A stretch of 56,675 bases of DNA, taken from positions 1-56,675 of the forward strand of contig JACPIU010000023.1 of assembly GCA_016187935.1 (NCBI GenBank), in the 5' to 3' direction. Positions 3,823 to 48,810 of the stretch are shown here, piece by piece. Made by a program: the position numbers and the translations under genes. This DNA comes from Bdellovibrio sp. Lineage in GTDB: Bacteria > Bdellovibrionota > Bacteriovoracia > Bacteriovoracales > Bacteriovoracaceae. How positions within the stretch are numbered: the first letter of the stretch is position 1; the number at the start of each line of letters is the position of its first letter. The notes below the pieces were generated by a model. That model was not told the DNA's origin and did no database searches. It saw only the letters and a list, made by a program, of their open reading frames with translations.

Positions 3823-6800
3823 TTATGGCATTGGCGGACTAAAATATACAGCAGTACCAATAAAACCTGCAGCGCACCCAAATCCAGCTGCTTTACTGTC
3901 ATATCTTGAGCGACATGCTTCATAAGCGCCTGCTGATGTCGCACTAGCACCAAGTAATGTAAACACTTGTGTTGCTGCGTTTACAGATTCGGCGTCCATT
4001 GCGCTATTGGCAGCTCCAGCTGATAAAAATTTAGCCCCGGCAAAAGAAAGCGCTGCATTTGACGAGAAATTTTGCATAAATTGTTCAGAATTTTGTGATT
4101 CAATCGCTGATACAGCTGTTGCTGTTCCAATAGCTCCCCAATACGCGCCACTGCTGAGTCCAAATACATTTCCAGAACCAAGGACTGCGCCGGCAATTGC
4201 ACCTTTGAGTACCCCATCACCAAAATTCATATTCCCAGTGCTCGCAGCATATGCTCCTCCTGCAGCTGCCCCTATGAGAGCGCCATAGAGAATTGGGGCA
4301 GCTGGCCCCGGCATGGCAATTGCAACTGCGATAACTGCGGTTACTATAACAGCTTGCTTTAGGCTTTGATTACTCATTGAAATTTTTATTGGGCCCACTC
4401 TAAATCCTTTCATTCCCGAAGGATCAGTGTTTACGGTGGGGTTATTATTAACGTATGAAAATTTATTATTGAACGATTCAGGATTAATCAATTTTCCCGA
4501 ATGAGAATCACTCTGTAGAAATCGACCAATGGAAGCATCATATGATCTGGTGCGATAATAATAAAGTCCACTTTCGCTATCAAATTCTCTGTTGGTGTAA
4601 GTAAAATATGGAGTAAGAATTGGCAAATTCGTTTCTGTATTGTTTGCATCGCGAATGGATAACAATTTTCCAAATGCAGAATAAGTGTAGCGTTCTTTGA
4701 TATCCCCTGCTGAATCAGTAATTTCTGTGATCGAGCCGAGTCCATCTTTTAAAAAATAAAGAGATCCAGTGTTTAATGAAACGCCTGCTTGTATTCCGGT
4801 AATAGTGACATCTATTGCAAGTGTGTCGTCGATTCCAAGACCTGAATTTGTATAGGTGGAAAGGACCTGATTATTTGCGTTCATTTCGTGCAATATTTGA
4901 TTATCGTGATACACATACCGACGAGTAAGATTGTTCGCCGCATTTTGATGATCGACAACGACTTTCTCTACCCTTTGTCCGAGAGCATTGTAAAAATAGT
5001 CCGCGGATTTTACGAGTACGTTATTTTCATATTGCTCAAATCTGATCAGTTGATTTTCCGAATTGTAGGTGAAATTTTCAACTTCTGCCCCAAGCGTTTT
5101 GGATTGTTTGGATGTTAAGTTTCCATTGTTATCAAAATAATAATAGTAGCGATAGTCTTCGGTCAGACGCTGCTTGGTCTGGTCATAGAGGAAGTCTCCA
5201 AGTTGATCATCTGTTCTGTTCCCGATCTGATCATAATTAAAAATTTCTGAAGCAAAATCTCCTGTGATTTCGGGGTTTGAAGAAGTTGTAAGTTGATTGT
5301 TGAGATCATACCCGAATAAAAAATCCCCAGAAGGTATTGTCATCTTAGTACGATTTCCGATTTGATCACGTTCGTACAAAACACTTTTGATGATGTCGCT
5401 TCCTTTTTTATGCTGAATACTGGTTAAAAAGTTGGTGTTATCAAAATCAAATTGACTCTTGCCATTTGGTCGAGTGAGTTCACGGAGTCTATTGGCGAGA
5501 TCATAATTGAAGGTAAAATTCTCACCTTTGTGATTGGTAAGAGAGGTCTGGCGGTCCAAGAGATCAAACCCATATGAAAAATTCCCAACAGCGGTTTCCA
5601 TTAAAATTCTGTTACCTGACGAATCAAAGTCAAAATTTAGTTCATATTCTGGATAATCAGACTTAATTCCAAGACCACGACTTTTGGCCGTCGTCACTTG
5701 ATATCCTCGTTCAGTTGCTGCATACTCAAACTCAAGTTCGGTTATATTATTTTTTGCAAGACTCAAATTTCCACGAGAGTCAAAGTCAAATTCGTAGATA
5801 TTATCCGGCAGAATCTTTTTTACAAGACGGTCCAAATTATCATATTGAAATGTTTTTAAATTGCCATTGGGATCAAGCTCAGTTTCCAAATTTCCGTTTT
5901 TGTCGAAGGTGAGTAGTGTTTGATGTCCCAACTGATCGACTTTTTTGAACATCTGATTTAAAGAGTTATAGTAGAAGTGAACCTCCTTACCAAGTGGGTC
6001 TTTAATTTTTGCAAGCTCCCCAGTTTCTTGGTATTGATATTCCGTCCTTTCATCTTTTGCAGAGACCACGGCGGTTAAGCGGTTCCATAAATCATACTCT
6101 CTTTTCACAACCTGATTTTTTGCATTAGTTATTTTTGTGATGTTACCAGCAACATCTCGCTCAAAGCTAGTTGTGGATAGATCAGGTGCTATTTGTGTTT
6201 TTAGATTCCCTGTATTGGGAAAGTATTCAAACGAAATTTTCTGGCCCAGAGAATTAGTCTGATCTTTTAAAAGTCCAAAACTCTCATAGGTCTTTGTGCT
6301 CGATTGGCCGGCATTATTATGAACTTCAGTTTCAAGTCCTGTTATTGGATCATAGACATGGGTGGTGACGAGACCGTGAGCATTGGTTTCACTCACGATT
6401 TGTCCAAAACTATTATAGGTGGAGGACACTGAACCACCTGTAGCAGAGTCGTGGCGAGACAAGAGGTCGCGCGTACCTGGATCATAAATAAAAGTTACTT
6501 CAGATAAATCAGGACGGATAATTTTTGTGGGATCACCATCGAGATTGCGTTCAATTTTGGTTGTTTTCCCCTCACCATCAATTATGGTGTCTATATACCC
6601 ATTAATATCCTTAATAAATTTTGTTTCAATATTTCTTGCATCCTTGATTCCGTCATAAACCTGACCATCGTTTGTGCCAAATGATTTGAGTTGCCCAGTG
6701 TTACCACTTGTAAATCCATTTGCGATTGTTCCACCGATTCCATCAATGAGAACAATCTCACTATCGTCGGGACGAGTGACTTTCGCCAATCTGTTGTGTG

Positions 6801-9675
6801 CGCTGAAGGTATATTTTGTAGAAAACCCGCGCTGATTAATTTCTTCAATGAGAAGGCCATCGGTATAATTAAATGATCGTGTTGTCCCGTCTGAAAAAGA
6901 TACTTGAGTGAGTGAATTGCCATTGTGATGAAGATTCGATGTCCTTCCCGCTGGGTCAGTGATACTTTCTAGCAAACTACCACTATAGGAAAGAGTTGTG
7001 GCCTTTCCCACAGGATCAACAATCGAAATTAGCCGATCTTCCTCATATAAAAAAGACGTCACCCTTCCTACGCGATCCTCAAGAGAAGTTTGGAGGCCTT
7101 GGGCATTAAAATAGGCCTTTGTTCCGTTTCGATACGATCTCGTAAATGATCCGTCAGAATTCCGAACAAGCGAAGAATTGTCTTTATGAAGTGGTGAAAA
7201 GGCCAAGGTCCCTGTCTCGGCAAAATCGAAGATAATTCTACGAATTCGCTTTTGATCTTCGTCGGAGACGAGTAAGTTTCCTCGATCATCAAACCCTAAT
7301 GATATTGGCCGGCAAAGACTTGCATCAAGAGCAGCGCCAGCGTCGCCAATATTACCTTCTGTTACACAAGTTCCGTTGCCTGCAACCGTTTCTGCAAGAT
7401 TATTTACAAGGTCAATTTTGACCACTCGATGAAGCCCGGTATCAGCGACGTATAAAATTCTTCTTTCTTCATCAAGTACCATTCCATGAGGTGATGAAAA
7501 CGCCATCTTATCCGCCGGCGCACTATTGGCAAGAATACCACCTTGGCCAAGTGGCAATCCAGCAACTTTTGTTATGCGCCCACTGGTATCCACTTTTCTT
7601 ATGAAGCCATTTTCGGTTGAAATATAGAGGTTTCCAAACGAATCGTAGAGAACTCCCATAGGATGAATCATGCTGGCCTCAAGCGCCGGCCCACCATCTC
7701 CGAGATCGTATGTTTGCCCATTACCTGCAATAGTGGAAACTGAGTTGGTGCTTGGGTTGATCAAGCGCACACGATTATTGCCATAGTCGGCAACAGCGAT
7801 AGTATCATTTTGGCTTTTGGCCAAACCCATCGGTTGGTTAAACCATGATGCAGTCAGGTCACCATCAAAGAACGCTCTCCGTGGATATTTGCCTGAAGCA
7901 GCAGGTGGGCAGACATCGGGCGGAAAGGGTGTTGAACTGGTTATGACATCTGTATAAATGGTATTGCACGATTCACCTGGAACCAATGGCCAAGGGTACA
8001 GGCATGGTTGGAAATAGGGCAAAGTTGCGTTTTTGGTTGAAGCCCATGACCTTTCTACTCCAGCAAATAATGAAAATGAGTTTGATTCAATTTTAAAAAT
8101 GACGGCCATGTTATCTGCTCCCAGAATAATACCATCAGAGAGGGCCAATATATTGGAAGCTTGCCTGTTAGTTTGGTAGGTTCTTTGAGTTCGACTACAG
8201 GAATATGGTTTTCCTATAGGTTTTGTTTGCCAAACCTGCCACCACATTCCCTCGTAGTTTGGAATCTGTGCCACGGTTGAGATGGAATTTGGAAGGATAC
8301 TTAGATCAGTTCGCTTTACCCCTCTAGCTGGCGTTGAAAAATAGGCCAGAGGCCATGAAGAAATGTCGGCGGCCTGCAACCCTTCGGGGTTGTGGAGAAC
8401 AGTCTCTATCGTATTATTGAGTGTATAGGGTGCAATGGACCCATCTCCTTCCTCAATAGCTAATCGACTGGATTTCGGATTCAAAATCTTCTGGACTCCG
8501 GCGATTTTCCAACCTCTTCCCGCGCTAGAATTGATCTTGTTTTGCACGTGTATTGTGCCAAGAAGATCGCTTGGAAATACTTGCGAGGCAATAGGGCCTG
8601 CACTCTCTTTGCTTATCTGAAGAGTTCGCAGTCCGCCCTTAAACTCAAAACCTTCCCTTGCTGTGGCGGTCATGTTTTTGGTTTGAATGACCATATGATT
8701 GAGTTTGATTTTGAAGCTCGCTAAATAAGGATACACATCCGAATCAAGATTTCCGAGGTCCATGGCATAAGAAACCACTGACCTTTGGGGGATACCCGTG
8801 AACCTCATTGGTTCACTCGCTATTCCTTCTGTGAAAAATTGAGCATCAATCCAAGCGGGTTCAATCCAACTTAAGGCCGTATTCCTATATTCGGCAGTGT
8901 ATTCTCGCTGTTCAATCGTTCCCGAGCTACTTCTAAAAACTTCGTTACGAGGGACATCGAATAAGTTCGCGACCACAACACTTGGTCTGGCCCAGGAACT
9001 TTTGTAGATAAGCCCTGGCGCGATATCTTCACCTAAGGACTTATAACTCGGGAACGAAATAGAAGTAGTCAGTGCCCCGTTAAAAGTGTCCACACCAGGT
9101 CTATCTTGGCCTCCAATTTGTTTTAGTTCAGGACCGAGCGGAACACTCATAATTTCTGAAAAGTGCGTGATTCCCATTCCCTCCTTGGTGCGAATCTCGC
9201 CACCAGTTGAATCTACTTGTGCCACACCATCAATTTCCCATTCGCCCGTCGCAGAATTCTTTGAGAGAATGACTAAATCCATGCCTGGGGGGAAATTATT
9301 TTCGTTAGGAAGGGACAGTTCAACAGGTTCTGAAAATCTTGTACCTGATGGTTCAAGAGCGATAACAGTATCCGGGACAGCGTATTCAGGAATATCAATG
9401 GTGGTTTTATCACTATCTACACGCAACATATTGATGACACCTGAATTCCCACCGTCTGGAAAAGTTGTTGCCCCTGCGGGAATATTGAGTACGACATCTG
9501 GGGCATGGGGACTCGTCACGATGGCCGCTTCATTACCTACAATCTCAGTTTCACTGCCGTCAAACATGAGAGGTGCGAGATAAATAGGCCTTTCAATCAC
9601 GTTACTTTGAACCACACCAATAGAAACTTTCACAACCGTTTTAGAAAATTTTCTATTCGGCCCAGTAACTTCCAA
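3823..9675 (-). CDS. giant secreted ZU5/NHL/RHS repeat protein (main part, frameshifted at its start)
   Basis: A 1950-residue frame. Domains in order: a ZU5-like region at about 40-190 (IPAGATTF, then HFS); a beta-rich segment; NHL propeller repeats at about 480-830 (GNGQTYDLGDGGPALEAS); tandem YD/RHS repeats from about 830 to 1690; the RHS core YTNREFDSESGLYYYRTRSY followed by IGRFLQSD at about 1690-1720; then a variable tail after DPSGMKG. RHS shells wrap a C-terminal cargo in an insecticidal-toxin-like cage. The tail is Gly/Ala-rich and hydrophobic with no toxin fold I recognise. The frame begins at a TTG with no ribosome site, and the sequence just before it continues in the upstream frame, so this is most likely not an independent gene but the rest of 9630-10049. 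Two lipoprotein genes follow directly. Confidence 0.88.
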   Translation of the reverse strand: MEVTGPNRKFSKTVVKVSIGVVQSNVIERPIYLAPLMFDGSETEIVGNEAAIVTSPHAPDVVLNIPAGATTFPDGGNSGVINMLRVDSDKTTIDIPEYAVPDTVIALEPSGTRFSEPVELSLPNENNFPPGMDLVILSKNSATGEWEIDGVAQVDSTGGEIRTKEGMGITHFSEIMSVPLGPELKQIGGQDRPGVDTFNGALTTSISFPSYKSLGEDIAPGLIYKSSWARPSVVVANLFDVPRNEVFRSSSGTIEQREYTAEYRNTALSWIEPAWIDAQFFTEGIASEPMRFTGIPQRSVVSYAMDLGNLDSDVYPYLASFKIKLNHMVIQTKNMTATAREGFEFKGGLRTLQISKESAGPIASQVFPSDLLGTIHVQNKINSSAGRGWKIAGVQKILNPKSSRLAIEEGDGSIAPYTLNNTIETVLHNPEGLQAADISSWPLAYFSTPARGVKRTDLSILPNSISTVAQIPNYEGMWWQVWQTKPIGKPYSCSRTQRTYQTNRQASNILALSDGIILGADNMAVIFKIESNSFSLFAGVERSWASTKNATLPYFQPCLYPWPLVPGESCNTIYTDVITSSTPFPPDVCPPAASGKYPRRAFFDGDLTASWFNQPMGLAKSQNDTIAVADYGNNRVRLINPSTNSVSTIAGNGQTYDLGDGGPALEASMIHPMGVLYDSFGNLYISTENGFIRKVDTSGRITKVAGLPLGQGGILANSAPADKMAFSSPHGMVLDEERRILYVADTGLHRVVKIDLVNNLAETVAGNGTCVTEGNIGDAGAALDASLCRPISLGFDDRGNLLVSDEDQKRIRRIIFDFAETGTLAFSPLHKDNSSLVRNSDGSFTRSYRNGTKAYFNAQGLQTSLEDRVGRVTSFLYEEDRLISIVDPVGKATTLSYSGSLLESITDPAGRTSNLHHNGNSLTQVSFSDGTTRSFNYTDGLLIEEINQRGFSTKYTFSAHNRLAKVTRPDDSEIVLIDGIGGTIANGFTSGNTGQLKSFGTNDGQVYDGIKDARNIETKFIKDINGYIDTIIDGEGKTTKIERNLDGDPTKIIRPDLSEVTFIYDPGTRDLLSRHDSATGGSVSSTYNSFGQIVSETNAHGLVTTHVYDPITGLETEVHNNAGQSSTKTYESFGLLKDQTNSLGQKISFEYFPNTGNLKTQIAPDLSTTSFERDVAGNITKITNAKNQVVKREYDLWNRLTAVVSAKDERTEYQYQETGELAKIKDPLGKEVHFYYNSLNQMFKKVDQLGHQTLLTFDKNGNLETELDPNGNLKTFQYDNLDRLVKKILPDNIYEFDFDSRGNLSLAKNNITELEFEYAATERGYQVTTAKSRGLGIKSDYPEYELNFDFDSSGNRILMETAVGNFSYGFDLLDRQTSLTNHKGENFTFNYDLANRLRELTRPNGKSQFDFDNTNFLTSIQHKKGSDIIKSVLYERDQIGNRTKMTIPSGDFLFGYDLNNQLTTSSNPEITGDFASEIFNYDQIGNRTDDQLGDFLYDQTKQRLTEDYRYYYYFDNNGNLTSKQSKTLGAEVENFTYNSENQLIRFEQYENNVLVKSADYFYNALGQRVEKVVVDHQNAANNLTRRYVYHDNQILHEMNANNQVLSTYTNSGLGIDDTLAIDVTITGIQAGVSLNTGSLYFLKDGLGSITEITDSAGDIKERYTYSAFGKLLSIRDANNTETNLPILTPYFTYTNREFDSESGLYYYRTRSYDASIGRFLQSDSHSGKLINPESFNNKFSYVNNNPTVNTDPSGMKGFRVGPIKISMSNQSLKQAVIVTAVIAVAIAMPGPAAPILYGALIGAAAGGAYAASTGNMNFGDGVLKGAIAGAVLGSGNVFGLSSGAYWGAIGTATAVSAIESQNSEQFMQNFSSNAALSFAGAKFLSAGAANSAMDAESVNAATQVFTLLGASATSAGAYEACRSRYDSKAAGFGCAAGFIGTAVYFSPPMP

Positions 9676-18118: not shown

Positions 18119-19252
18119 TCAACCTGACTTGGCTTTAGTGTGATTATTTCGCAGCCGCGCAAACCAAGAAGTTTTTGAAGATGACTGATCTAGATTTACG
18201 GCCCTTAACTCTTCAAACAATTCTTTTTCGCGGGATTTTAGATGTTCCGGAATTTGGATATCAATTGTGACATAAAGATCACCATGTCCTGAGCTATGGG
18301 ATTTAGGTAATCCCTTACCCTTCACCCGCAAAGAAGTTTGGGCCTGTGTTCCGCTTGGGACTTTGACAATGACATCATCGTTTAAGGTGGGAATTTGTAT
18401 TTTTGTTCCAAGAACGGCGTCATAAACAGGAATGGTGGCGGAATAAAAAAGATCCGGTCCGAGACGTTGGAAGTTTGGGTCTTTTTTTGTTTGGATAATG
18501 ACCAACAAATCGCCGGGACCACCGTTCCCTATCGGCCCTTCACGGCCTTGCTTGGCAATTCTCAAAACCGTGCCATCCTCCACCCCGGGAGGGATAAGGA
18601 CTTCGATGCCTTTTTCTCTGTTGATAAAACCCATACCCGAGCATTGAGAACAGGGATTTTCAATAATGCTTCCCTTGCCATGACATTTTGAACAGGGGCG
18701 AATTTGCTGAAATACCATATTGTGAGTTGTATGACTGGCAACGGTTTGTCCGGTTCCTTGACAGAGATCGCAAGTCTTGGGGCCGCTTCCAGCCGCGGCC
18801 CCACTGCCATGGCAAAGATCACAGGATTCTTTTCGCTTTAAATTAATATTTTCTGAACCACCGGTCATAATTTTTGATAATGGCACTTCCACTAGAATTT
18901 CAATATCCTTCCCTCGTCTACGCTGATATCGATAACGGTCAAAGAAATGCTCAAAGAGAGGGCCGCCAAAATCGCCAAAAATTTCATCAAAGTTAATTCC
19001 GCCAAAGAGATCATCAGGTCTAAAATCCGAGAGGCCCTCAAAACCGTGGGCATCATATTGACGCTTTTTATCCGGATCGGACAAAATGGCATACGCTTCG
19101 GCGATTTCTTTAAAGCGCTCTTCGGCACCTGGTTCTTTATTTCGGTCAGGATGATAGCGCATGGCCAAGTCACGAAAAGCATCTTTGATTTGTTTTTCAT
19201 CCGCTTGCTTGGAGATTCCTAGGATTTCGTAATAATCTCTTTTTGCCACCAC
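18119..19252 (-). CDS. dnaJ: DnaJ co-chaperone
   Basis: 377 residues with the full type-I layout: J-domain with HPD at 34-36, a Gly/Phe-rich linker (FGGINFDEIFGDFGGP), four CxxCxGxG zinc modules (CDLCHGSG, CDLCQGTG, CSKCHGKG, CSQCSGMG), then the two beta-sandwich substrate domains and a dimer region. It stimulates DnaK ATPase and delivers substrate. It lies 27 nt after dnaK on the same strand. The start is GTG at 19252, with no ATG available. grpE is not in the block, which suggests this is an extra dnaK-dnaJ copy rather than the main heat-shock locus. Confidence 0.93.
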   Translation of the reverse strand: MVAKRDYYEILGISKQADEKQIKDAFRDLAMRYHPDRNKEPGAEERFKEIAEAYAILSDPDKKRQYDAHGFEGLSDFRPDDLFGGINFDEIFGDFGGPLFEHFFDRYRYQRRRGKDIEILVEVPLSKIMTGGSENINLKRKESCDLCHGSGAAAGSGPKTCDLCQGTGQTVASHTTHNMVFQQIRPCSKCHGKGSIIENPCSQCSGMGFINREKGIEVLIPPGVEDGTVLRIAKQGREGPIGNGGPGDLLVIIQTKKDPNFQRLGPDLFYSATIPVYDAVLGTKIQIPTLNDDVIVKVPSGTQAQTSLRVKGKGLPKSHSSGHGDLYVTIDIQIPEHLKSREKELFEELRAVNLDQSSSKTSWFARLRNNHTKAKSG

Positions 19253-19279: not shown

Positions 19280-21121
19280 TTAGGCGGAGTGTTCACGACT
19301 TGTTTCCTTATATTCCGCGTCGACAACACGTCGATCTTTCTCTCCTTTAGAAGCATTAGGATCCCTAGTTTTATCTGCACCATGAGCATAAATGACCTTT
19401 CCAATCTCTTGGAGAAGCAGTTTAAGCTCTTCAGATTTTTTATCCGCCAGAATAGCGTCGCGCTTTTCAACTGCCGCTTTTGTTTCTTTAAGCTTATCTT
19501 GAATTTTATTGTTCAAGGTTTGATCAAGTTGACTGCCAAATTCCGCCAGAGTTTTCTCGGCCTCATAACAAATTCCATCGGCCATATTGATTTTGTCCGC
19601 GGCATCTCGGCGTTTTTTATCTTCCTCGGCATATTTCTCAGCATCTTTTATCATACGTTGTTTCTGAAGCTCATCAAGCCGTGTTGAACCAGTTATGCTG
19701 ATTGATTGGGACTTCTGGGTCGCCAGATCTTTTGCCATAACATTGAGAATACCGCTCGAATCAATATCAAATGTTACTTCGATTTTTGGAATACCACGCG
19801 GAGCGGGTGCCAAACCATCCAAATTGAACAGACCTAAACTGGTATTATCACTCACCATGGGTCTTTCACCTTGAAAAACCTGAATCGTTACGGAAGTCTG
19901 CATACTTTCCGCGGTGGTAAATATTTCGCTCTTTTTAATCGGAATGGGGGTATTTCTCGGAATGAGTGGCGTGGCGACACCACCCAAAGTTTCAATCCCC
20001 AAAGTCAGCGGAGTGACATCCACAAGCACAATATTTGAGACCTGTCCGGCCAAAACAGCGGCCTGGATAGCGGCACCACTGGCAACGCACTCCATGGGAT
20101 CAACCCCTGCCTCTGCTTTGCGTTTCAAATAATCTTCAAAAAAATTTCGCACAATAGGCATTCGCGTGGGGCCACCAACAAAGACAATTCTATCAATTTG
20201 GTTTGAAGTGAGTTTTGAATCCTGCAGTGCTTGCTCAAGGGGTTTCCGGCAACGATCGACCACCGAGCGAATCTGTCGTTCAAGTTCAGTGCGGGTTAAA
20301 TCCATTTCCAAATGAAAAGGTGAACCTTTGCTCAATCCAAGGTATGGCAGACTTATGTGGGCAACAGTGCTGGTGGTAAGTTCGATCTTGGCCATTTCAA
20401 CCGCTTCTCTGACTCTGGCCTCAGCTTTTCGGTCGCCTTTAATATAAAATTCATGCTCTCTTTGAACCCGATCGACGAGATAATCAAACAACTTCTGATC
20501 CATATCGACCCCGCCAAGCTGGGTATCACCGCTGGTTGCTTTGACTTGAAAAACCCCTTTGCCAAATTCCATAATTGTTACATCGAGAGTCCCGCCACCT
20601 AAGTCGATGACTGCAATCTTCAAATCTTCCCCTAGTCGATCAAGGCCATAGGCCAACGAAGCCGCCGTTGGTTCATTGACCAATCGTTCAACATTGAGCC
20701 CTGCTATTTTACCGGCATCTTTAGTAGCATTTCGTTGATTATCGTCGAAATAGGCCGGAACTGTTACAACACACTTTTCCACCTTTTCACCCAAAAATGC
20801 TTCAGCATCACGCTTAATCTTTTGCAGCAAAAAAGAAGATAATTGTTCGGGTGAAAATTCTCGGTCTCTAAGCTTAAATGTCTTGCGAACACCCATACTG
20901 CGTTTAAAACCAGTTATCGTGCCTTCAGGATTTGAAGCCGCTTGCCTCTTGGCCGGCTCGCCAACCAAGAGCTGACCTTCAGCGGTCACGGCAACATAAC
21001 TCGGGAAAGCTTTCCCCCCGATACTAATACCCTCAGCACTGGGAATAATGACAGGTCTACCATCCCGGAGAACGGCGGCGGCTGAATTAGAGGTCCCAAG
21101 ATCTATTCCAATGATGGCCAT
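19280..21121 (-). CDS. dnaK: Hsp70 chaperone DnaK
   Basis: 613 residues. The ATPase half shows GIDLGTSNSAAAV at the start, the NEPTAASLAYG block, IAVIDLGGGTLDVTI and FVGGPTRMP; the substrate half begins at DVTPLTLGIET. The C-terminus ends VVDAEYKETSREHSA, similar to but shorter than the common DnaK tail. It folds proteins together with DnaJ. GAGGAATTT lies just upstream of the ATG. The gene follows the CBS protein by about 37 nt and precedes dnaJ, so the three probably form an operon. The GTSNSAAA (rather than GTTNS) variant is typical of secondary DnaKs, an inference from memory. Confidence 0.95.
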   Translation of the reverse strand: MAIIGIDLGTSNSAAAVLRDGRPVIIPSAEGISIGGKAFPSYVAVTAEGQLLVGEPAKRQAASNPEGTITGFKRSMGVRKTFKLRDREFSPEQLSSFLLQKIKRDAEAFLGEKVEKCVVTVPAYFDDNQRNATKDAGKIAGLNVERLVNEPTAASLAYGLDRLGEDLKIAVIDLGGGTLDVTIMEFGKGVFQVKATSGDTQLGGVDMDQKLFDYLVDRVQREHEFYIKGDRKAEARVREAVEMAKIELTTSTVAHISLPYLGLSKGSPFHLEMDLTRTELERQIRSVVDRCRKPLEQALQDSKLTSNQIDRIVFVGGPTRMPIVRNFFEDYLKRKAEAGVDPMECVASGAAIQAAVLAGQVSNIVLVDVTPLTLGIETLGGVATPLIPRNTPIPIKKSEIFTTAESMQTSVTIQVFQGERPMVSDNTSLGLFNLDGLAPAPRGIPKIEVTFDIDSSGILNVMAKDLATQKSQSISITGSTRLDELQKQRMIKDAEKYAEEDKKRRDAADKINMADGICYEAEKTLAEFGSQLDQTLNNKIQDKLKETKAAVEKRDAILADKKSEELKLLLQEIGKVIYAHGADKTRDPNASKGEKDRRVVDAEYKETSREHSA

Positions 21122-21158: not shown

Positions 21159-21629
21159 TTAAATTTTAATGCCTTTCTTGGTCGGGAGAGTTATCCCTTT
21201 TTCCTTGTTAATTTGCGTTTCATTAATTTTCGCCAAATTATTCATTTCTTCACTCATCAGCTCCAAAAGATCATCAGCGCAAACGATACCATACAGGGTA
21301 CCATCCTCATTAATGACTGGAATTCGTTTTACCCCGCTTTCACGCATTTTTACGATTGTTTCAAAGATTCCTTCGCTCACTTTAACCGTGATCGGCGCAC
21401 TTTGCATGATATTTTCAACTCGCAATTCCTGAGGCCTTGGCGATGAACCAACCGCTAAAGCGATATCACGATCAGTAATCATCCCTGCCGGAATTTTTTT
21501 ACCATTCATGCCTTCCGTGACGACGACGCTTCCAACATGATTTTTTTGCATAACATTCGACACATTTAAAAGCGTAGATTTTTTGTCGATTGTGACCACA
21601 TTAGTTTTGCAAATAGATTTAATCGCCAT
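21159..21629 (-). CDS. CBS-domain protein
   Basis: 156 residues with two tandem CBS domains (about 6-65 and 73-135): SVVVTEGMNGKKIPAGMITDRDIA, and VKRIPVINEDGTLYGIVCADDLLEL. Such pairs bind adenine nucleotides and act as sensors of energy state or of DNA/RNA ligands. GGGGGAG just before the ATG at 21629 supports the start. It heads the dnaK-dnaJ set and is divergent from the structured RNA and archease-rtcB, so it could sense AMP/ATP for the chaperone block. Partner unknown. Confidence 0.9.
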   Translation of the reverse strand: MAIKSICKTNVVTIDKKSTLLNVSNVMQKNHVGSVVVTEGMNGKKIPAGMITDRDIALAVGSSPRPQELRVENIMQSAPITVKVSEGIFETIVKMRESGVKRIPVINEDGTLYGIVCADDLLELMSEEMNNLAKINETQINKEKGITLPTKKGIKI

Positions 21630-21714
21630 GCTTCTCCCCCTATTCTAATAAAAACCTTGTTATACTTTAAATCCGTTAGTAAGGAAGTATCGCTACCACT
21701 GCTTATCTCATACT

Positions 21715-22532
21715 GTGACAATATCCCTCTCAGTACAGTGACAACACTCAAATTGAATCTTCAATCAAAGAGAGTAAAATTCATCCTGTTTGAAGGTAGC
21801 GAAGCTATCCGATCCTTCGCAGGTGAAAGTCCTGACAGGAAAAGGGTCTTATGGTTTCTGAAACTTCCGCCATGAATTGAAAAGGTGACTTTTTAATTTA
21901 ATGCTGGTGCAAAAAAAGGAATTGAATACTCCTTGAAGTTAACCGATAGGTTGTAGCGCAAGTGAACTTTTTTACTTCAAATTGTCTTGCTCCCATGGAA
22001 GCAAGCAAGAGTTTGCCGAACCTGTTTCAAACAAGGTTAAGGCCCCTGCCATTCACCAAGAGATAAGACAGAGGCAGTGAATGGATTCTCTGAAGTATTA
22101 GGGATGACATATCGGGAAGGATGATCGGAGAAAGCTCGGAACCACTTGTAGGAAGTTGAGGAAGATCACTTTCCTCTTAACGACAAAGGGGAAACTTTTT
22201 GTCGCCAACAAGCGGGACGGTAGAGGCCGTGAAGCATTAAAGTTACAGGCAGCAAAACCTTTAACCAAGCGAGGGCCTCTAGGGTTGAGTTTTTAGGCTT
22301 ATAATCTAAAAACTCCAATAGTGGTTTCGACAGTCAAATGTTGAAACGAAGAACGCAGGTCAAGCTCATCCTGTTGGTGTATGACATGATCGTCTAAAAC
22401 CAATAGTTGAATGCGAATGCAGCGTTTGAAATACTGGCCCTTCGCCGTACTGGGGAAAACCTAACGTGCGGTAAAAAAGGAAAGGTGGCGGACTTTTAGA
22501 GGATTTAGTTCTGAAAAAAGTCTGCCGTCTAT
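21715..22532 (+). ncRNA. large structured RNA, group II intron-like, without ORF
   Basis: About 800 nt without a coding frame but full of base-paired elements. At 22441-22475 is a hairpin with the layout of group II domain V: a lower helix TTCGCCGTA against TGCGGTAAA with a CGC-type triad, a two-base CG bulge on the 3' side, a short upper helix and a GA-rich loop. It is imperfect: one C-A mismatch low in the stem and a five-base loop. A domain VI-like hairpin follows at 22487-22525. Upstream, CAGG-TGAAAGT-CCTG at about 21820-21835 and further helices (TAGAGGCC with GGCCTCTA at 22221-22280, a 10-bp hairpin at 22287-22315) resemble domains I-IV. Candidate 5' end GTGAC at 21715; a second is GTGAC at 21739. 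Neither end is proven. It could be an old, degenerate intron or another large RNA class. Confidence 0.5.
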
Positions 22533-22567
22533 CTCTAATTTATTTTAATTTTAATTTCTGGTAACCT

Positions 22568-22987
22568 ATGACCACTTTGAAATGGGAACATTTTTCACAT
22601 GAAGCAGATGTGGGCATTCGTGGTTTTGGCAGTACCATGGAAGAAGCATTTGCTATGGCCATCATTGCTTTAACCGCAATCGTCGCAAATCCTGATACGG
22701 TAGAACCAAAAATAAAAATTCAAATTACGTGTCACGACGAAGATGTGGAGTTGCTTTTTTATGATTGGATAAATTCTGTCATCTATGAAATGGATACAAA
22801 AAATATGCTTTTTTCAATTGCCAAAGTTCATATTGATAATTCCTATCTGGAAGGTGAGATCTGGGGTGAAATAATTGTACCTGAGAAGCATGATCCTGCT
22901 GTAGCGGTCAAAGGAGCAACCATGACAGAGCTGAAAGTCAGCACGACGGGCAAGCAATGGATCACTCAATGTGTCGTTGATGTTTGA
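22568..22987 (+). CDS. archease, RtcB cofactor
   Basis: 139 residues matching archease over its length: FSHEADVGIRGFGSTMEEAF near the start with the conserved D and G, AMAIIALTAIV, the DEDVELLFYDWINSVIYEMDT helix, and VKGATMTELKV near the end. Archease helps RtcB through guanylation and makes it multi-turnover. It is 21 nt upstream of rtcB on the same strand. It has no strong ribosome site; its ATG lies about 35 nt after the end of the intron-like RNA, so its leader consists mostly of that RNA. Confidence 0.92.
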   Translation: MTTLKWEHFSHEADVGIRGFGSTMEEAFAMAIIALTAIVANPDTVEPKIKIQITCHDEDVELLFYDWINSVIYEMDTKNMLFSIAKVHIDNSYLEGEIWGEIIVPEKHDPAVAVKGATMTELKVSTTGKQWITQCVVDV

Positions 22988-23008: not shown

Positions 23009-24439
23009 ATGAAGCTGAATCTTGTTGAGAAAATTACACCCGAGATATGGGAGATAAGGCCATTTGGAAAAATGAATGTACCCGCCCGCATTTACGCCAG
23101 TGAAGATCTGATTTCAAAGATGGATTTAAAAGTCTATGAGCAACTTTGCAATCTCACAATGTTGCCTGGAATTGTCGATATGGCCTACGCCATGCCGGAT
23201 GCGCATTGGGGATATGGCTTTCCGATTGGCGGAGTTGCGGCCTTTGACCCTGAAAAAGGCGGCATCATTTCTGCCGGAGGAGTGGGGTTTGATATTTCTT
23301 GCGGTGTCCGTTTGCTTCATACCAAAATGAAGGTAGCTGAACTCGCGCCTCACAAGGAAACTCTCGCCAATCTGCTTTACAAACGAATTCCCTCAGGAAC
23401 CGGAAGTCGCGGCAAAATAATTTTAAGTGATCAGGACATGAATGATATGTTGATGGGAGGAGCACGATGGGCAGTGGACAAAGGATATGGATCAGCAGCA
23501 GATTTGGATTTCATTGAAGAACATGGACAAATGGCCGGGGCCAATCCAGAGACAATTTCCAAAAGGGCGAAAGAACGGCAAAAAGAGGAAATGGGAACCC
23601 TCGGTTCAGGAAATCATTATCTTGAGATTCAAGATGTCAATGAGATCTTCCATCCGGAGGCGGCTAAAGTTATGGGACTTGAACTGCATGATGTTGTCAT
23701 CAGCATTCATTGCGGTTCCAGAGGACTGGGGCACCAAATTGGCACTGATTATCTGCGCTCAATGATGACAGCATCCAAGCAATATGGAATCTATCTGCCC
23801 GATCGTGAACTTGCCTGTGCCCCCATCCAATCTGATTTAGGGAAAAGTTATCTCGGGGCCATGCGAGGTGCCATTAACTGCGCGCTGGCAAATCGCCAGA
23901 TTATTACACATTTAGTACGAGAGGTTTTTAATGAGGTAATCCCGAATTTGAAATTACGTCTGGTCTATGATGTTTCCCATAATACTTGCAAAAATGAATG
24001 GCACATGGTGAATGGAAAGAAAGTGAACTTATTTGTCCATCGAAAAGGCGCCACCAGGGCCTATGGCCCTGGCCATGAAGATCTCCCGGAAAATTTTAAA
24101 TCCGTGGGGCAACCAGTATTTATAGGCGGAAGTATGGGGGTCGGGTCATTCGTATTGGTTGGCACAAACGAGTGTGAATCGCTGGCCTTCAGTTCTGCCT
24201 GTCACGGCGCTGGTAGGGCCATGAGTCGCACTGAGGCCAAAAAATTCTGGAACGGACCGCAGATCATCAAAGAATTGCGAGAACAGGGAATTGTAATACG
24301 CAGCGGTTCCTATCGTGGTGTCGCCGAGGAAGCTCCCCTCGCCTATAAAGATCTGAAGTCAGTGGTTGATGCTGCTGAAAATGCTAAACTGGCCCTTAAA
24401 GTCGCCCAACTATCTCCCCATATTTGCGTCAAGGGGTAG
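23009..24439 (+). CDS. rtcB: tRNA-splicing/RNA repair ligase RtcB
   Basis: 476 residues. RtcB joins RNA 2',3'-cyclic phosphate or 3'-phosphate ends to 5'-OH ends with GTP and manganese. The metal-binding Asp and Cys are visible in GGVGFDISCGVR (Cys98), histidines in PDAHWGYG and VISIHCGSRGLGHQIG, and the guanylylated His region in VHRKGATRAYGPGH. AGGAGG is seven bases upstream of the ATG. With archease it forms an RNA repair operon. The gene converges with ppsA, with only about five bases between the stops. Confidence 0.96.
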   Translation: MKLNLVEKITPEIWEIRPFGKMNVPARIYASEDLISKMDLKVYEQLCNLTMLPGIVDMAYAMPDAHWGYGFPIGGVAAFDPEKGGIISAGGVGFDISCGVRLLHTKMKVAELAPHKETLANLLYKRIPSGTGSRGKIILSDQDMNDMLMGGARWAVDKGYGSAADLDFIEEHGQMAGANPETISKRAKERQKEEMGTLGSGNHYLEIQDVNEIFHPEAAKVMGLELHDVVISIHCGSRGLGHQIGTDYLRSMMTASKQYGIYLPDRELACAPIQSDLGKSYLGAMRGAINCALANRQIITHLVREVFNEVIPNLKLRLVYDVSHNTCKNEWHMVNGKKVNLFVHRKGATRAYGPGHEDLPENFKSVGQPVFIGGSMGVGSFVLVGTNECESLAFSSACHGAGRAMSRTEAKKFWNGPQIIKELREQGIVIRSGSYRGVAEEAPLAYKDLKSVVDAAENAKLALKVAQLSPHICVKG

Positions 24440-40229: not shown

Positions 40230-40328
40230 TTAATCACTCCCTCGGTTGGAATGGAGGCATGAGCATACACAATAACCACGCTCGCTAAGGATGACCGCCA
40301 TCAAGTGGCCAGATGTTCTACGACAGTA

Positions 40329-41213
40329 TTACAACAAGAAGGGAAGAATATAGATGATGAAGAAGATGATACTTTCAGCAATTTCATTTGCCTTACGAAC
40401 CGAAATTGGCCGATCGGGAAATTTGGCCTTATCCCAGGCCACCCATTTTTTAAAATCTTCAAATGGCAATTTCCCCATACACTCGGCAAGTTCCGGCGAA
40501 ATGGTGATATCATCGGTACCATGGTATTGGGCCAGGTATTCCAAGTCACGCGAAAGTCTGGCCTCTTTGCTATTGGGATCAATGCTCTCAATTTGCACGA
40601 TTCGATTGATCGCTCCCCTAATGGCCGGGCCGTAGATGTCTTGTCTGACTCCCACATTCTTTAGTGCCGTATAGCGACCACGATCGAAGTAGTTCACGGT
40701 AGAGTTGAAGTAAATCTTTCGGCCCCAAATGTGCTGTTCATAGAGTTCCATATCATCTCCACCTACATGAGTGGAAATAAAACATTCACTTTTCAATCTA
40801 TCGGGGCGTTCTGAGTCACCTTTACAGACAAGACTCAAATCATGAATGTTTTTCTTCTGGGCAATTTTGCACAATTCCCAGAGCTTCATTCTCTCTTGAG
40901 GAAAAGAATAGTGATGGGATGGAATATCGCGGCCCCATGCCGGGTGTTGTTGGTGATGAGCGGGTGTTAGGACGCCCCCAAACATCTCAGGATATCCAGA
41001 AAGCCGAATCTCGCGATGAAACGAATTTCTAACGGTAATGTCAGGATAAAGTTCAGGGGTTTCAAGTCCAAAAGCACCCTGGGATTCCATGGCCTCAACA
41101 TTATGAAACCGCACCGTTTGGCAGGGATTTTCTTCAGCACCAGCAAAACTCTGCAGCAAGAGATAAGAGAGAACAAATTGAGCAATGATAATCTTAATAT
41201 TCTGCCACATCAT
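40329..41213 (-). CDS. secreted or membrane-anchored protein of unknown function
   Basis: 294 residues with a signal peptide ending at about AGA (IIIAQFVLSYLLLQSFAGAEE). The body is rich in His, Glu and aromatic residues, with Cys in CQTVRF, ELCKIAQ, LVCKG, SECFIS and AECMGK, suitable for disulfides. A hydrophobic C-terminal segment (IIFFIIYILPFLL) may anchor it to a membrane. About 100 nt separates it from DUF362. Family not recognised. Confidence 0.65.
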   Translation of the reverse strand: MMWQNIKIIIAQFVLSYLLLQSFAGAEENPCQTVRFHNVEAMESQGAFGLETPELYPDITVRNSFHREIRLSGYPEMFGGVLTPAHHQQHPAWGRDIPSHHYSFPQERMKLWELCKIAQKKNIHDLSLVCKGDSERPDRLKSECFISTHVGGDDMELYEQHIWGRKIYFNSTVNYFDRGRYTALKNVGVRQDIYGPAIRGAINRIVQIESIDPNSKEARLSRDLEYLAQYHGTDDITISPELAECMGKLPFEDFKKWVAWDKAKFPDRPISVRKANEIAESIIFFIIYILPFLL

Positions 41214-41398
41214 GACTTTTTAAAAGCAAACATAGTGCCAATAAAATACTCCTAAATTCAATGTGTTAATCAGGCAAAAAGGATTAAAAAATAGACACTT
41301 TTGAAAAAATGTATAGTTATTAAGCACAAACAAATATCGTGTAAATTTTAGCAGTAACCCTATTCCTTCTTTTTTTATCCCACCCCATTATATATATA

Positions 41399-41410
41399 GT
41401 TTGGCCAAAC
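41399..41410. promoter_or_regulatory. 12-bp palindrome before the clostripain-like gene
   Basis: GTTTGGCCAAAC reads the same on both strands and lies about 50 bp upstream of the gene start, right after an alternating TATATATATA stretch that could open easily. Position and symmetry fit an operator. No regulator of this site is known to me. Confidence 0.35.
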
Positions 41411-41462
41411 GAGATAAGATCTCCAAAGATTGGGCGTCATTCCTTGGAAGAGACATTTAAAA

Positions 41463-44672: not shown

Positions 44673-44761
44673 TTACCCGAGCGCGACAGTCCACCAAGAG
44701 GCAAACCTTTTCTCCTCTAAGAAATTGTGGCAATTTCATGCCATAATCATTGTATAAAACT

Positions 44762-46069
44762 ATGATCGGATTATTTGTTTCCAAAGGCAGTAACGAAGGA
44801 ACCTGCTTTCTCTTGAAAAGTAGCGAAGGCAGGTATGTTCTCGGCAGCGACAAATCGCTGTCGCTCCATTTGCCTGATCCCGGCATTTCGTCTCACCATG
44901 CCGAGGTCTATTTTGAAAATGATAAGTGGTGGATTAAGGATTTGGACAGCACTAATGGAACATTTGTGGGCGGTCTTCCCATTAGTCGTCCCACTGAAAT
45001 TATTCCCCGGGATAAAATCGTCATCGGCAAAGTGGAAATGCAAGTAGTCGAGAGGAAAGACGGCAATGAGGTCCCGCGAAAGAAAAAAAATTCTGAAACC
45101 TTAACTGTTCCATTCGATCCTCACGCCAGTATCTTGGGGACTTCCAAGACGACTGAAGGGATGATTGAATTTATCAATAAAGTCGCCCCCCTTGATTGCA
45201 CCATTTTATTGGAAGGAGAGACCGGCACGGGGAAGGAAATTGTGGCCCGTGCTATTCATACCCTAAGCCCACGATGCAGCAAGCGATTTGTTCCCATCAA
45301 TTGTGGTGCCATTCCCGATAATCTCATCGAAAGTGAGCTTTTTGGTCATGAAAAAGGTGCTTTCACCGGTGCCGATAAAAGACACATCGGCCACTTCGAA
45401 GATGCCAATGGCGGGACTCTTTTCCTTGATGAAATTGGCGATTTACCTTTATCCGCGCAGACTAAATTACTACGCGTGCTGGAATCCAAACAGATTCGAA
45501 GACTCGGCGGTGAACATGAACTGAGTGTCAATGTTCGTGTCTTGGCAGCTTCTCATAAAAGTCTGTCTGATCTGGCCGAGAGCGGTGATTTTAGAAAAGA
45601 TCTCCTGCATCGTCTCAAGGTCATTCACTTCAAAATACCATCGCTGAAAGAACGGAAACAGGATATTCCCGTATTAGCTAAACATTTTATAAATGTCCTT
45701 TCCATTGATATGGGAAAAAAACCTTATACCATTTCTCCCGAGGCCCTGGATTGTTTAAGTCAATATGCTTGGCCAGGAAATATCCGCGAATTAAAAAATG
45801 TCATCGAAGCCGCAATCGTAAATGCTCCCTCCTCAATAATCCAAGTCGCGGATCTGCAATTAACAGAAAAACATGTCGATTCTCCAACCGGCCGACAAAG
45901 TGGGAACGATTCTTTCCTCTCCATCGAAGAGTTTGAAAAAGAAAAAATCTCCGCCCATATCCGCCAGGCCATTGCCAAAGCCGGAGGGAATAAGAAAAAG
46001 GCCGCCGAACTTCTTGGCATAAGCCGTGCCGCCTTTTATGAGAAAATAAAAAAATACGGTATAGAGTAA
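44762..46069 (+). CDS. FHA-domain sigma-54-dependent transcriptional activator
   Basis: 435 residues. The N-terminal FHA domain (GSDKSL, SSHHAEVYF, DSTNGTFVGG) binds phosphothreonine. The AAA+ domain has Walker A GETGTGKE near residue 152, the sigma54-contact loop GAFTGA near 199, and Walker B LFLDEIGDL. The C-terminal Fis-type HTH is GGNKKKAAELLGISRAAFYEKI. I prefer ATG 44762 over a TTG 12 bases upstream. It has no receiver domain, so phosphorylation by the kinase, whose gene starts in its stop codon, is the natural input. Confidence 0.93.
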   Translation: MIGLFVSKGSNEGTCFLLKSSEGRYVLGSDKSLSLHLPDPGISSHHAEVYFENDKWWIKDLDSTNGTFVGGLPISRPTEIIPRDKIVIGKVEMQVVERKDGNEVPRKKKNSETLTVPFDPHASILGTSKTTEGMIEFINKVAPLDCTILLEGETGTGKEIVARAIHTLSPRCSKRFVPINCGAIPDNLIESELFGHEKGAFTGADKRHIGHFEDANGGTLFLDEIGDLPLSAQTKLLRVLESKQIRRLGGEHELSVNVRVLAASHKSLSDLAESGDFRKDLLHRLKVIHFKIPSLKERKQDIPVLAKHFINVLSIDMGKKPYTISPEALDCLSQYAWPGNIRELKNVIEAAIVNAPSSIIQVADLQLTEKHVDSPTGRQSGNDSFLSIEEFEKEKISAHIRQAIAKAGGNKKKAAELLGISRAAFYEKIKKYGIE

Positions 46070-48810
46070 TGCGTATCTGTCCGAATTGCCTGAAGGAAAC
46101 AGATCAGGAAATTTGCCCTATTGACGGCTTCCAAACTACCGAGCGAAAAAATCTCAAAATGAAAGTTGCTGATCCTTTCGTCGGTCAAGTCTTTTTAAAT
46201 CGCTATAAAATTGAAAAAATCATTGGCGAAGGTGGGATGGGGAAAGTGTATCTGGCAAGGCAGATCTCGGTCAATCGCGATGTCGCCATTAAAATCTTAT
46301 CCCCCAATAACCCTGACAGTGAAAAGGATATTATCCGCTTTCAACGCGAGGCCGTGACCGTTGGTCAGCTTCAGCACCCTAACACAGTTAAACTTTATGA
46401 TTATGGTGAGACAGAATTCGGCGGTCTCTTCATGGCCATGGAATATATCCAGGGGAAGACCATTCGAGACTGTATCAAGGCGGGCAGAAAGTTTTCTGTT
46501 GATGATGTTTGCAGCATCACAAAACAAATTCTCAAATCACTGCGTGAGGCGCATGATCATGGCATTATTCATAGAGATTTAAAATCAAGCAACATCATGC
46601 TGACAGAGAACTTTGGCGAAAGAGATTTCGTCAAAGTTTTAGATTTCGGGATTGCAAAAAATATTTACCATAGCAAGGAAGATTCCAGTCTTACCGCCAC
46701 AGGTTTTGTGGTAGGAACACCCACCTACATGTCCCCAGAACAAATTCTAGGTCTCAATGTCGATGGAAGATCGGACCTCTATTCACTTGGCCTTATCATG
46801 TACGAAATGCTTACCCATCGCAAACCACCAAAGGCCAAAAACCGTAGCGAACTGCTCGATACCAGACCCAATCCTGATTTCCTGCGATTTGATGATCTTC
46901 CCCAAACTGACAAGAGTAAAACTTTATATTCACTTGTTTCGAAGTCACTTGAAAAAATTGCAGCGAAACGCCCAGAGTCTGCCGCAACCTTTTTAAGCAT
47001 GATCGAGAAAATGGATCAAACAGGTCCGGCAATAGTTTTACCGGAACCTAAAAAAGAAATGGCACCACCGCCACGAATGAAGCCGCCCCAAAAAACAAAA
47101 AAGAAATTGGGCGCCTTCTTCCCGCTCATCATCATCTGCGCACTCCTTGCTGTTATTGCAATGAGATACGTCAAACGTCACGTCCAAACAAAAAATGAAA
47201 TTAATGCAGAACTTATTTCGCCGGTGTCAGAAAATTCTCAGATTGTCATGCATACCGGGACTCCTGCTCCAATTGTTATCCCGACGCTTATCCCGACCTT
47301 TACTCCTATTCCCACTCGTGTTCCAACTCTTGCTTCTACTCCCCTGCCCCCAAAAGATGAGTTCCTGACCGTGCAAACTGACATAAATCTCGACTTTGCG
47401 AAAAATCTTCAAAATCTATCTCTTAAGATTGATGGGCCTTTGGACTTCTTCGTTGAAATTTCCGAAGTTAATTCTCCCGCATTTGGAACGCAGATCGAGA
47501 TCAATCCCAACTCTAAAAACGCCCACATTCCCATCTTGATTCGGGCCAAACAACCTTGTGGCTTTATGCTAAGCTTGATTCAAACCAATGCGACAGGGAA
47601 TTTGGTCCTGGCCAAAGGCATGGGCCATATGGGTATTCTGGCCAGTGATGGTCGCGTCCCAATCAATAGTGCGACGACCTTCCTCACTAATTATGCTCTC
47701 AAGCAAAACAAATTGGAAAATCTAAGCTTCCGCTGCATTATCGATCCGTATACGTATTTATTTGAAACTTTGCGACAAAAATATGAAGCCAATCTTTGGT
47801 TACTCCCCCAAAAAATTCTGGAGGAAGAAGTCACCGCCAAAGCACATATTTTTTCCACCGCCCCATCATGCCAGACCATGCCCCACGAAAAAGGGACAAA
47901 ACTGATTCCCGTAACTCTCTCGATTGAAATCGATCCGCTCAAGCTTCAGACAGGTTCGACGCTCAAACTCAAAATCATGAGAGAAGATAGTTTTTACCTT
48001 CCCCTCAAACACCTAAACTCCAAAGCTGCCAATCTTGATTTGACTCCAGAACTTGATTTTACCATCAAAAGCAATGACAAGTTTTACACCTTGCGATTTT
48101 TCACAGTTTTGCCCGAGGGGCCCGAGTTCGGGAATGTAGAAATCCACCACAACGGCCAGAACATCTTAAGCGGTATAATCAATCTGCGGCGTTCTGAGCA
48201 AGGCCTACAAACAGAGATAAATTCAAAGACTACACTTTTTACCCGCTCTTTAGAACTAAATGACTATGAGCTGGCGTGTCTCATGCACCATTTTGAGAAA
48301 TTTGGCCCAGTGATTCCAGGTGAAGGCGGGTGCAAAAGACCATATGCAAACCAAAAGCGCGATACCACTAAATTCCGTGTTTCATCCAATACGCTCTCAA
48401 AAAATAGCTTACTTCAACGCGAAGATTTGTTATTCATTCCAATCAAAATTGATTCAACTAACCATGAGATTGAATTTAACAATCACTTTGGTCCTGCATG
48501 GACGCGTCTAATCATACCTGAAAACTCTCAAGCACCCTTGTCTACCATATTCAACATTCGCGATGTCATGATAAAAGATGACGGCGTTCTAATTTCTCCT
48601 CTTGGTAATCTAATTATCACAAAGATCTTGGAGAATGATTCACTTAATCAATATGATCTGGAATGTTTAAATTTTCAATTCAATGAACTCATGATCGTTG
48701 CGACATCGACTTTTCGGCTTTCACCGGAAACTTCTACCAATATTCTAATTCCCGAATGGCAAGAACATTTTAAAATGTTGAAGCAGAACATGCCTTGCAA
48801 AAAACGATAA
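46069..48810 (+). CDS. transmembrane Ser/Thr protein kinase with zinc-ribbon and large sensor ectodomain
   Basis: 913 residues. A short zinc ribbon (CPNC at 4-7, CPIDG near 16) opens the protein. The Hanks kinase domain is at about 45-315: GEGGMGKVY, catalytic Lys75 in VAIK, HRDLKSSN near 168, DFG in VLDFGIAKN, SPEQILG. A Pro/Lys-rich linker leads to one membrane helix at about 345-367. The 545-residue outside half matches the lipoprotein at 43107-44672 along its length. It contains Cys-bearing segments repeating the SATTF...RCIIDPY pattern. It overlaps the FHA activator by one base (TAATG). Outside binding is likely read through the helix to the kinase, then the activator. Confidence 0.9.
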   Translation: MRICPNCLKETDQEICPIDGFQTTERKNLKMKVADPFVGQVFLNRYKIEKIIGEGGMGKVYLARQISVNRDVAIKILSPNNPDSEKDIIRFQREAVTVGQLQHPNTVKLYDYGETEFGGLFMAMEYIQGKTIRDCIKAGRKFSVDDVCSITKQILKSLREAHDHGIIHRDLKSSNIMLTENFGERDFVKVLDFGIAKNIYHSKEDSSLTATGFVVGTPTYMSPEQILGLNVDGRSDLYSLGLIMYEMLTHRKPPKAKNRSELLDTRPNPDFLRFDDLPQTDKSKTLYSLVSKSLEKIAAKRPESAATFLSMIEKMDQTGPAIVLPEPKKEMAPPPRMKPPQKTKKKLGAFFPLIIICALLAVIAMRYVKRHVQTKNEINAELISPVSENSQIVMHTGTPAPIVIPTLIPTFTPIPTRVPTLASTPLPPKDEFLTVQTDINLDFAKNLQNLSLKIDGPLDFFVEISEVNSPAFGTQIEINPNSKNAHIPILIRAKQPCGFMLSLIQTNATGNLVLAKGMGHMGILASDGRVPINSATTFLTNYALKQNKLENLSFRCIIDPYTYLFETLRQKYEANLWLLPQKILEEEVTAKAHIFSTAPSCQTMPHEKGTKLIPVTLSIEIDPLKLQTGSTLKLKIMREDSFYLPLKHLNSKAANLDLTPELDFTIKSNDKFYTLRFFTVLPEGPEFGNVEIHHNGQNILSGIINLRRSEQGLQTEINSKTTLFTRSLELNDYELACLMHHFEKFGPVIPGEGGCKRPYANQKRDTTKFRVSSNTLSKNSLLQREDLLFIPIKIDSTNHEIEFNNHFGPAWTRLIIPENSQAPLSTIFNIRDVMIKDDGVLISPLGNLIITKILENDSLNQYDLECLNFQFNELMIVATSTFRLSPETSTNILIPEWQEHFKMLKQNMPCKKR

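Follow-up and report, generated by a model that had tools for sequence, protein, structure and literature searches.

What occupies the gap between a divergent CBS-domain gene and the archease gene of this Bdellovibrio contig (positions 21630–22567 of the window, that is, of the whole 56,675-nucleotide stretch analysed)? A first, sequence-only reading proposed that the gap has no protein-coding gene and holds a group II intron-like RNA in the leader of the archease–rtcB operon. We found no plausible open reading frame (ORF) in it. On one side lies the CBS-domain gene (21159–21629, minus strand), followed in the divergent operon by the genes for DnaK (19280–21121) and DnaJ (18119–19252). On the other side are archease (22568–22987, plus strand; PF01951, 1.5e-36), which is the first gene 3' of the RNA, and the RNA ligase gene rtcB (23009–24439, plus strand; PF01139, 1.3e-163). 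The order of the divergent operon and the position of archease are both conserved in a related species (genome G040). Elsewhere, the window carries an IS110/IS116-family transposase gene (636–1781) and a very long ORF of 1950 amino acids with YD/Rhs-type repeats (3823–9675).

Extent, fold and distribution of the RNA

In all copies of the RNA, shared homology begins at the G at position 21788 (GTTTGAAGG) and ends at position 22534 (plus strand), with copies and orthologues aligning across the entire interval. The 3' end is therefore located 33 nt upstream of archease, close to the 35 nt estimated initially, whereas the 5' end initially placed at a GTGAC (21715) is not borne out. The sequence upstream of G21788 is predicted promoter.

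In a permissive Rfam scan of the gap, positions 21817–21961 matched RF02003 (group-II-D1D4-4) with 46.4 bits (E-value = 6e-9), just below the gathering threshold of 49. No Rfam family reached its gathering threshold in the window, RF00029 (domains V and VI; D5/D6) gave no match there, and an HLE match in the permissive scan was discarded as chance (E-value = 1.3). The RNA was missed before for two reasons, the score of the window copy slightly below the RF02003 threshold and the failure of its D5 to match RF00029. The G040 orthologue scores 51.1 bits against RF02003, above the gathering threshold, which is also reached by L029, L031, L037 and L039 and, in other families or genera, by 13 loci (best score 73.4).

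A consensus fold of 10 copies (RNAalifold) has D1–D6 in canonical order, with compensatory changes in 105 of its 198 pairs. A second set of eight copies, drawn from families f3, f4 and f10 and not overlapping with the first, gave the same six domains (122 of 243 pairs compensated). Both alignments fold far better than column-shuffled controls (z about −28), and the window sequence itself folds much more stably than its shuffled versions (z = −6.2). Specifically, domain I spans positions 21800–22138, domain II 22139–22218, domain III 22222–22280 and domain IV, in which an ORF scan found no maturase, 22281–22441. The domain V hairpin (22444–22472) has a 2-nt bulge and a CGC triad at 22443–22445, and the domain VI hairpin (22483–22530) is followed by a U-rich stretch (22534–22557) and has no bulged branch A. 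The hairpins of the sequence-only reading (22441–22475 and 22487–22525) correspond to these two domains, and its observation that no maturase is encoded holds as well. The shape and 2-nt bulge of D5 are kept in the window and its relatives, as expected of a group II D5 (about 34 nt, with triad and bulge). According to the consensus fold, the 5' and 3' ends of the RNA may pair in a closing helix; support for a pseudoknot between the 5' end and D1 (extended epsilon–epsilon') is marginal (0.942 versus a permuted maximum of 0.937). Judged by its sequence and base-pair covariation, the interval 21788–22534 encodes a genuine RNA of the group II fold.

The same genome, which is of Bacteriovoracia type, has further copies with 70–80 per cent identity on contigs C45, C43 (at both ends), C22 and C21, and related species (Bdellovibrionales and Bacteriovoracaceae metagenome-assembled genomes) carry orthologues, of which the one in G040 is likewise situated right before archease. 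We searched 369 Bdellovibrionota genomes with a covariance model built on the 123 nt at the 5' end of the RNA and then with a rebuilt model, and recovered the RNA in 36 and 39 genomes, respectively, with E-values (R1, R2) that are rough and with the window copy within the training set. The RNA occurs in 22 of 182 genera and in at least seven families, with several paralogues per genome. In some genera of family f1, our D5 pattern did not locate D5 in the copies, and their upstream motif differs. On the 12.4-kb contig C43, near-identical inverted copies (L003, L004) are located at both flanks, and their 5' flanks are supplied by C45 (L002) and C22 (L006).

Promoter, exit and downstream genes

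The region upstream of G21788 is a predicted promoter, of sigma70-like type with Crp/FNR-like boxes in the window's group and of sigma54 type in most other families. In the window, the sigma70-type promoter (21753–21780, plus strand) consists of a −35 element TTGAAT (21753–21758), a 16-nt spacer and a −10 element TAAAAT (21775–21780), 7 nt from G21788. This layout (TTGnnT-16-TAnnnT-7-G) is constant in nearly all same-family copies. A Crp/FNR-like box, GTGACAACACTCAA (21738–21751, plus strand), is centred 43.5 nt before the first base of the RNA. Across 13 core copies, the boxes at −43.5 and −65.5 have mean matches of 5.85 and 6.08 of 10, compared to 4.54 for the best of 500 shuffles; in the window copy itself, no box stands out at −65.5. 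In copies from other families or genera, a sigma54 −24/−12 element (TGGCAY-N5-nTGC) lies upstream in 23 of 35 (18 of these elements fall between −30 and −32), compared with 5 per cent of control windows, all these assignments being motif matches that related copies share by descent. The rpoN gene was found in all 38 RNA-holding genomes tested, and Crp/FNR-type genes are present in three RNA neighbourhoods. Additionally, the recent duplicates on C45 and C22 share about 50 nt of extra sequence 5' of the RNA, so the duplicated unit includes sequence before the RNA, i.e. the putative promoter. Six copies from other f1 genera (L056, L060, L062, L069, L071, L072) have an AT-rich upstream motif near CTAATTTTTATATTGG and a GATACT-like −10 element, not a sigma54 element. 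One copy (L092) is directly followed by a gene for an NtrC-type sigma54 response regulator (5949–7436), and the window itself encodes an FHA-domain sigma54 activator and then a Ser/Thr kinase (44750–48810), a candidate for the control of sigma54 promoters.

At the 3' end, many copies have a T-run after the D6 hairpin, which by sequence makes D6 a predicted intrinsic terminator in these copies; in the window, there is no clean T-run but only the U-rich stretch. In 32 of 39 copies, the RNA and the gene that follows it share a strand (P-value = 4e-5), and the start codon of that gene is often 20–70 nt past D6, which leaves little space for a second promoter. Archease starts 12–33 nt past the end of the RNA in the window and G040. 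The downstream gene often encodes Hsp20, a CBS-domain protein or another stress protein; FtsH-like genes and archease–rtcB are also found. About a dozen copies, not all, combine promoter, structured RNA, terminator and a close same-strand gene. Because only two of about 50 copies, those of the window and G040, precede archease–rtcB, the link to rtcB is not special: the operon is one of several neighbours, and a substrate link between the ribozyme and the RNA ligase is not supported.

Given the promoter, the group II fold, the terminator-like D6 and the close same-strand stress gene, a leader or attenuator is the best single reading of these loci. We consider it probable that a group II intron RNA has been domesticated in Bdellovibrionota as a promoter-driven RNA of approximately 750 nt that serves stress genes as a leader or attenuator. 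Transcription would start at G21788 or a few bases upstream of it. The promoter would be of a stress type, in the window's group a sigma70 promoter with Crp/FNR sites and in most of the other families a sigma54 promoter. The transcript would fold as D1–D6, with D6 at the exit as an intrinsic terminator in many lineages, and the fold would most likely determine how much transcription, or in the case of the window how much translation, gets through to the downstream stress gene: archease–rtcB in the window, and Hsp20, CBS-domain or FtsH-like genes elsewhere. We infer attenuation by D6 from this arrangement; in the window, read-through or translational control is likely, because D6 is followed by a U-rich stretch only and archease lies 33 nt on. 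Of the initial proposal of a group II intron-like leader, the ORF-less group II-like RNA and the regulatory leader are thus retained, whereas the spliced intron is not. A bolder version, which we offer tentatively, holds that the RNA is a giant riboregulator exapted within one phylum under sigma54 or Crp/FNR control, whose group II tertiary fold senses stress and opens or closes the D6 terminator before chaperone, CBS, protease and RNA-repair genes.

The main rival is suggested by those copies that lack a downstream gene on the strand of the RNA. The RNA could be a free-standing, trans-acting non-coding RNA with a group II fold, made under stress in a structural or scaffold role, with the genes behind it merely sharing its promoter or neighbourhood. 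Its own promoter and terminator, its discrete ends, which may pair in the closing helix, and the several paralogues per genome all agree with such an RNA. In some copies the next gene is far off or on the other strand (the latter in L038, L083, L086, L091 and L106), an arrangement that a pure cis-leader does not predict. However, the excess of same-strand genes, often so close to D6, and the short distance to archease in both species argue against independence from the downstream gene, and we regard the trans-acting RNA as rather unlikely.

Splicing, mobility and catalysis

The RNA resembles bacterial ORF-less group II introns in its RF02003 match, its canonical six domains, its D5 hairpin and its D4 without an ORF. 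It differs from them in having a promoter in place of a 5' exon, no EBS1–IBS1 pairing and no branch A, in a D6 that is often a terminator, and in its intergenic position before stress genes, in mostly maturase-free holders. An ORF-less mobile intron that both splices and spreads by means of a trans-acting maturase and favours promoter regions would account for the complete D1–D6, the conserved D5, the several copies per genome with one recent duplication, and the one group II maturase-type reverse transcriptase of the genome (contig C15). Nevertheless, the signatures of splicing do not appear. Across copies, pairing between any RNA column and the upstream bases does not exceed that seen with permuted exons (0.69 versus 0.70), and no copy has a 5' exon signature. 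The GUGYG 5' splice start is absent, as copies begin with GUUUG, GCUUG, GUUCG or similar, and neither alignment has a conserved unpaired branch A in the 3' strand of D6, which some known group II introns also lack. The EBS1–IBS1 pair suggested at the outset, AGTAT (22094–22098) with ATACT (21710–21714), does exist, but one such 5-mer in 820 nt is at chance level, and the AGTAT is not conserved; the pair was rejected. An alternative EBS1, AGGATGA, pairing with TCATCCT just upstream of 21788, was rejected too: AGGATGA is constant whatever lies upstream and belongs to the basal helix of D1, as its 3' strand.

None of the RNA copies encodes a maturase ORF, the GIIM domain is missing from 33 of the 39 holder genomes (the overlap of 6 versus 3.6 expected is at chance level), and in none of the 39 does a GIIM domain adjoin the RNA. 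The C15 maturase (G000, 40265–41432; L009) belongs to an ordinary group II intron with a different, RF00029-type D5/D6 and no similarity to the RNA, and was rejected as its partner. Additionally, the C45/C22 duplicate took its promoter along, which a retrohoming RNA would not do. The mobile-intron reading is, on these sequence comparisons, mostly refuted already and in our judgement very improbable; as far as sequence can tell, the RNA is not a spliced intron in a leader. The D5 pattern was not found in IMG/VR, and a viral origin was rejected. One genome (G060) has eight GIIM-domain fragments, with a weak match to the RNA model 11 kb from one of them, and may be an ordinary intron-rich genome. 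Three loci (L041, L042, L043, in G057, G041 and G040, respectively) have non-intron reverse transcriptases that are candidates for defence-type enzymes.

Least probable of all, and very unlikely, is a leader ribozyme whose group II active site still cuts the RNA from the mRNA by hydrolysis at the D6 end: although the D5 shape is kept nearly everywhere and the window keeps the bulge and, in the triad, G·U and C–G, there is no 5' exon to serve as nucleophile, the triad varies among lineages (AGC, CGC, TGC or AAC, with its G lost in L095), and no conserved cleavage-site sequence follows D6. The RNA has presumably lost catalysis, but given the triad and D5 of the window some residual activity may persist.

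Relation to known RNAs

Group II introns are thought to be ancestral to the spliceosomal RNAs, and to our knowledge those of bacteria are known essentially as selfish introns. If correct, the reading as a domesticated leader would make this family, which keeps its compensated base pairs across a phylum, a clear example of how a group II ribozyme became a host RNA, and would provide a bacterial system for asking what the group II fold does after splicing is lost. Our literature search found no paper that describes a group II RNA with its own promoter in Bdellovibrionota, and a published list of Bdellovibrio non-coding RNAs contains none that is intron-like (PMC3627812).

The RNA shares with circularly permuted group II RNAs its group II origin and its occurrence away from the usual intron setting; in those RNAs, D5–D6 precede D1 and RNA circles are made (PMC8637638), whereas here the order is D1–D6 and no linker or exon was seen. 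OLE, GOLLD and ROOL, compared here by description, are likewise long, strongly structured bacterial non-coding RNAs. OLE is linked to stress adaptation; the present RNA matches a group II Rfam model. Leaders of the riboswitch or thermometer type in front of Hsp20 genes also combine a promoter, a structured leader, a terminator and a stress gene; compared to them, the present RNA is 5–10 times longer and has a complete group II fold.
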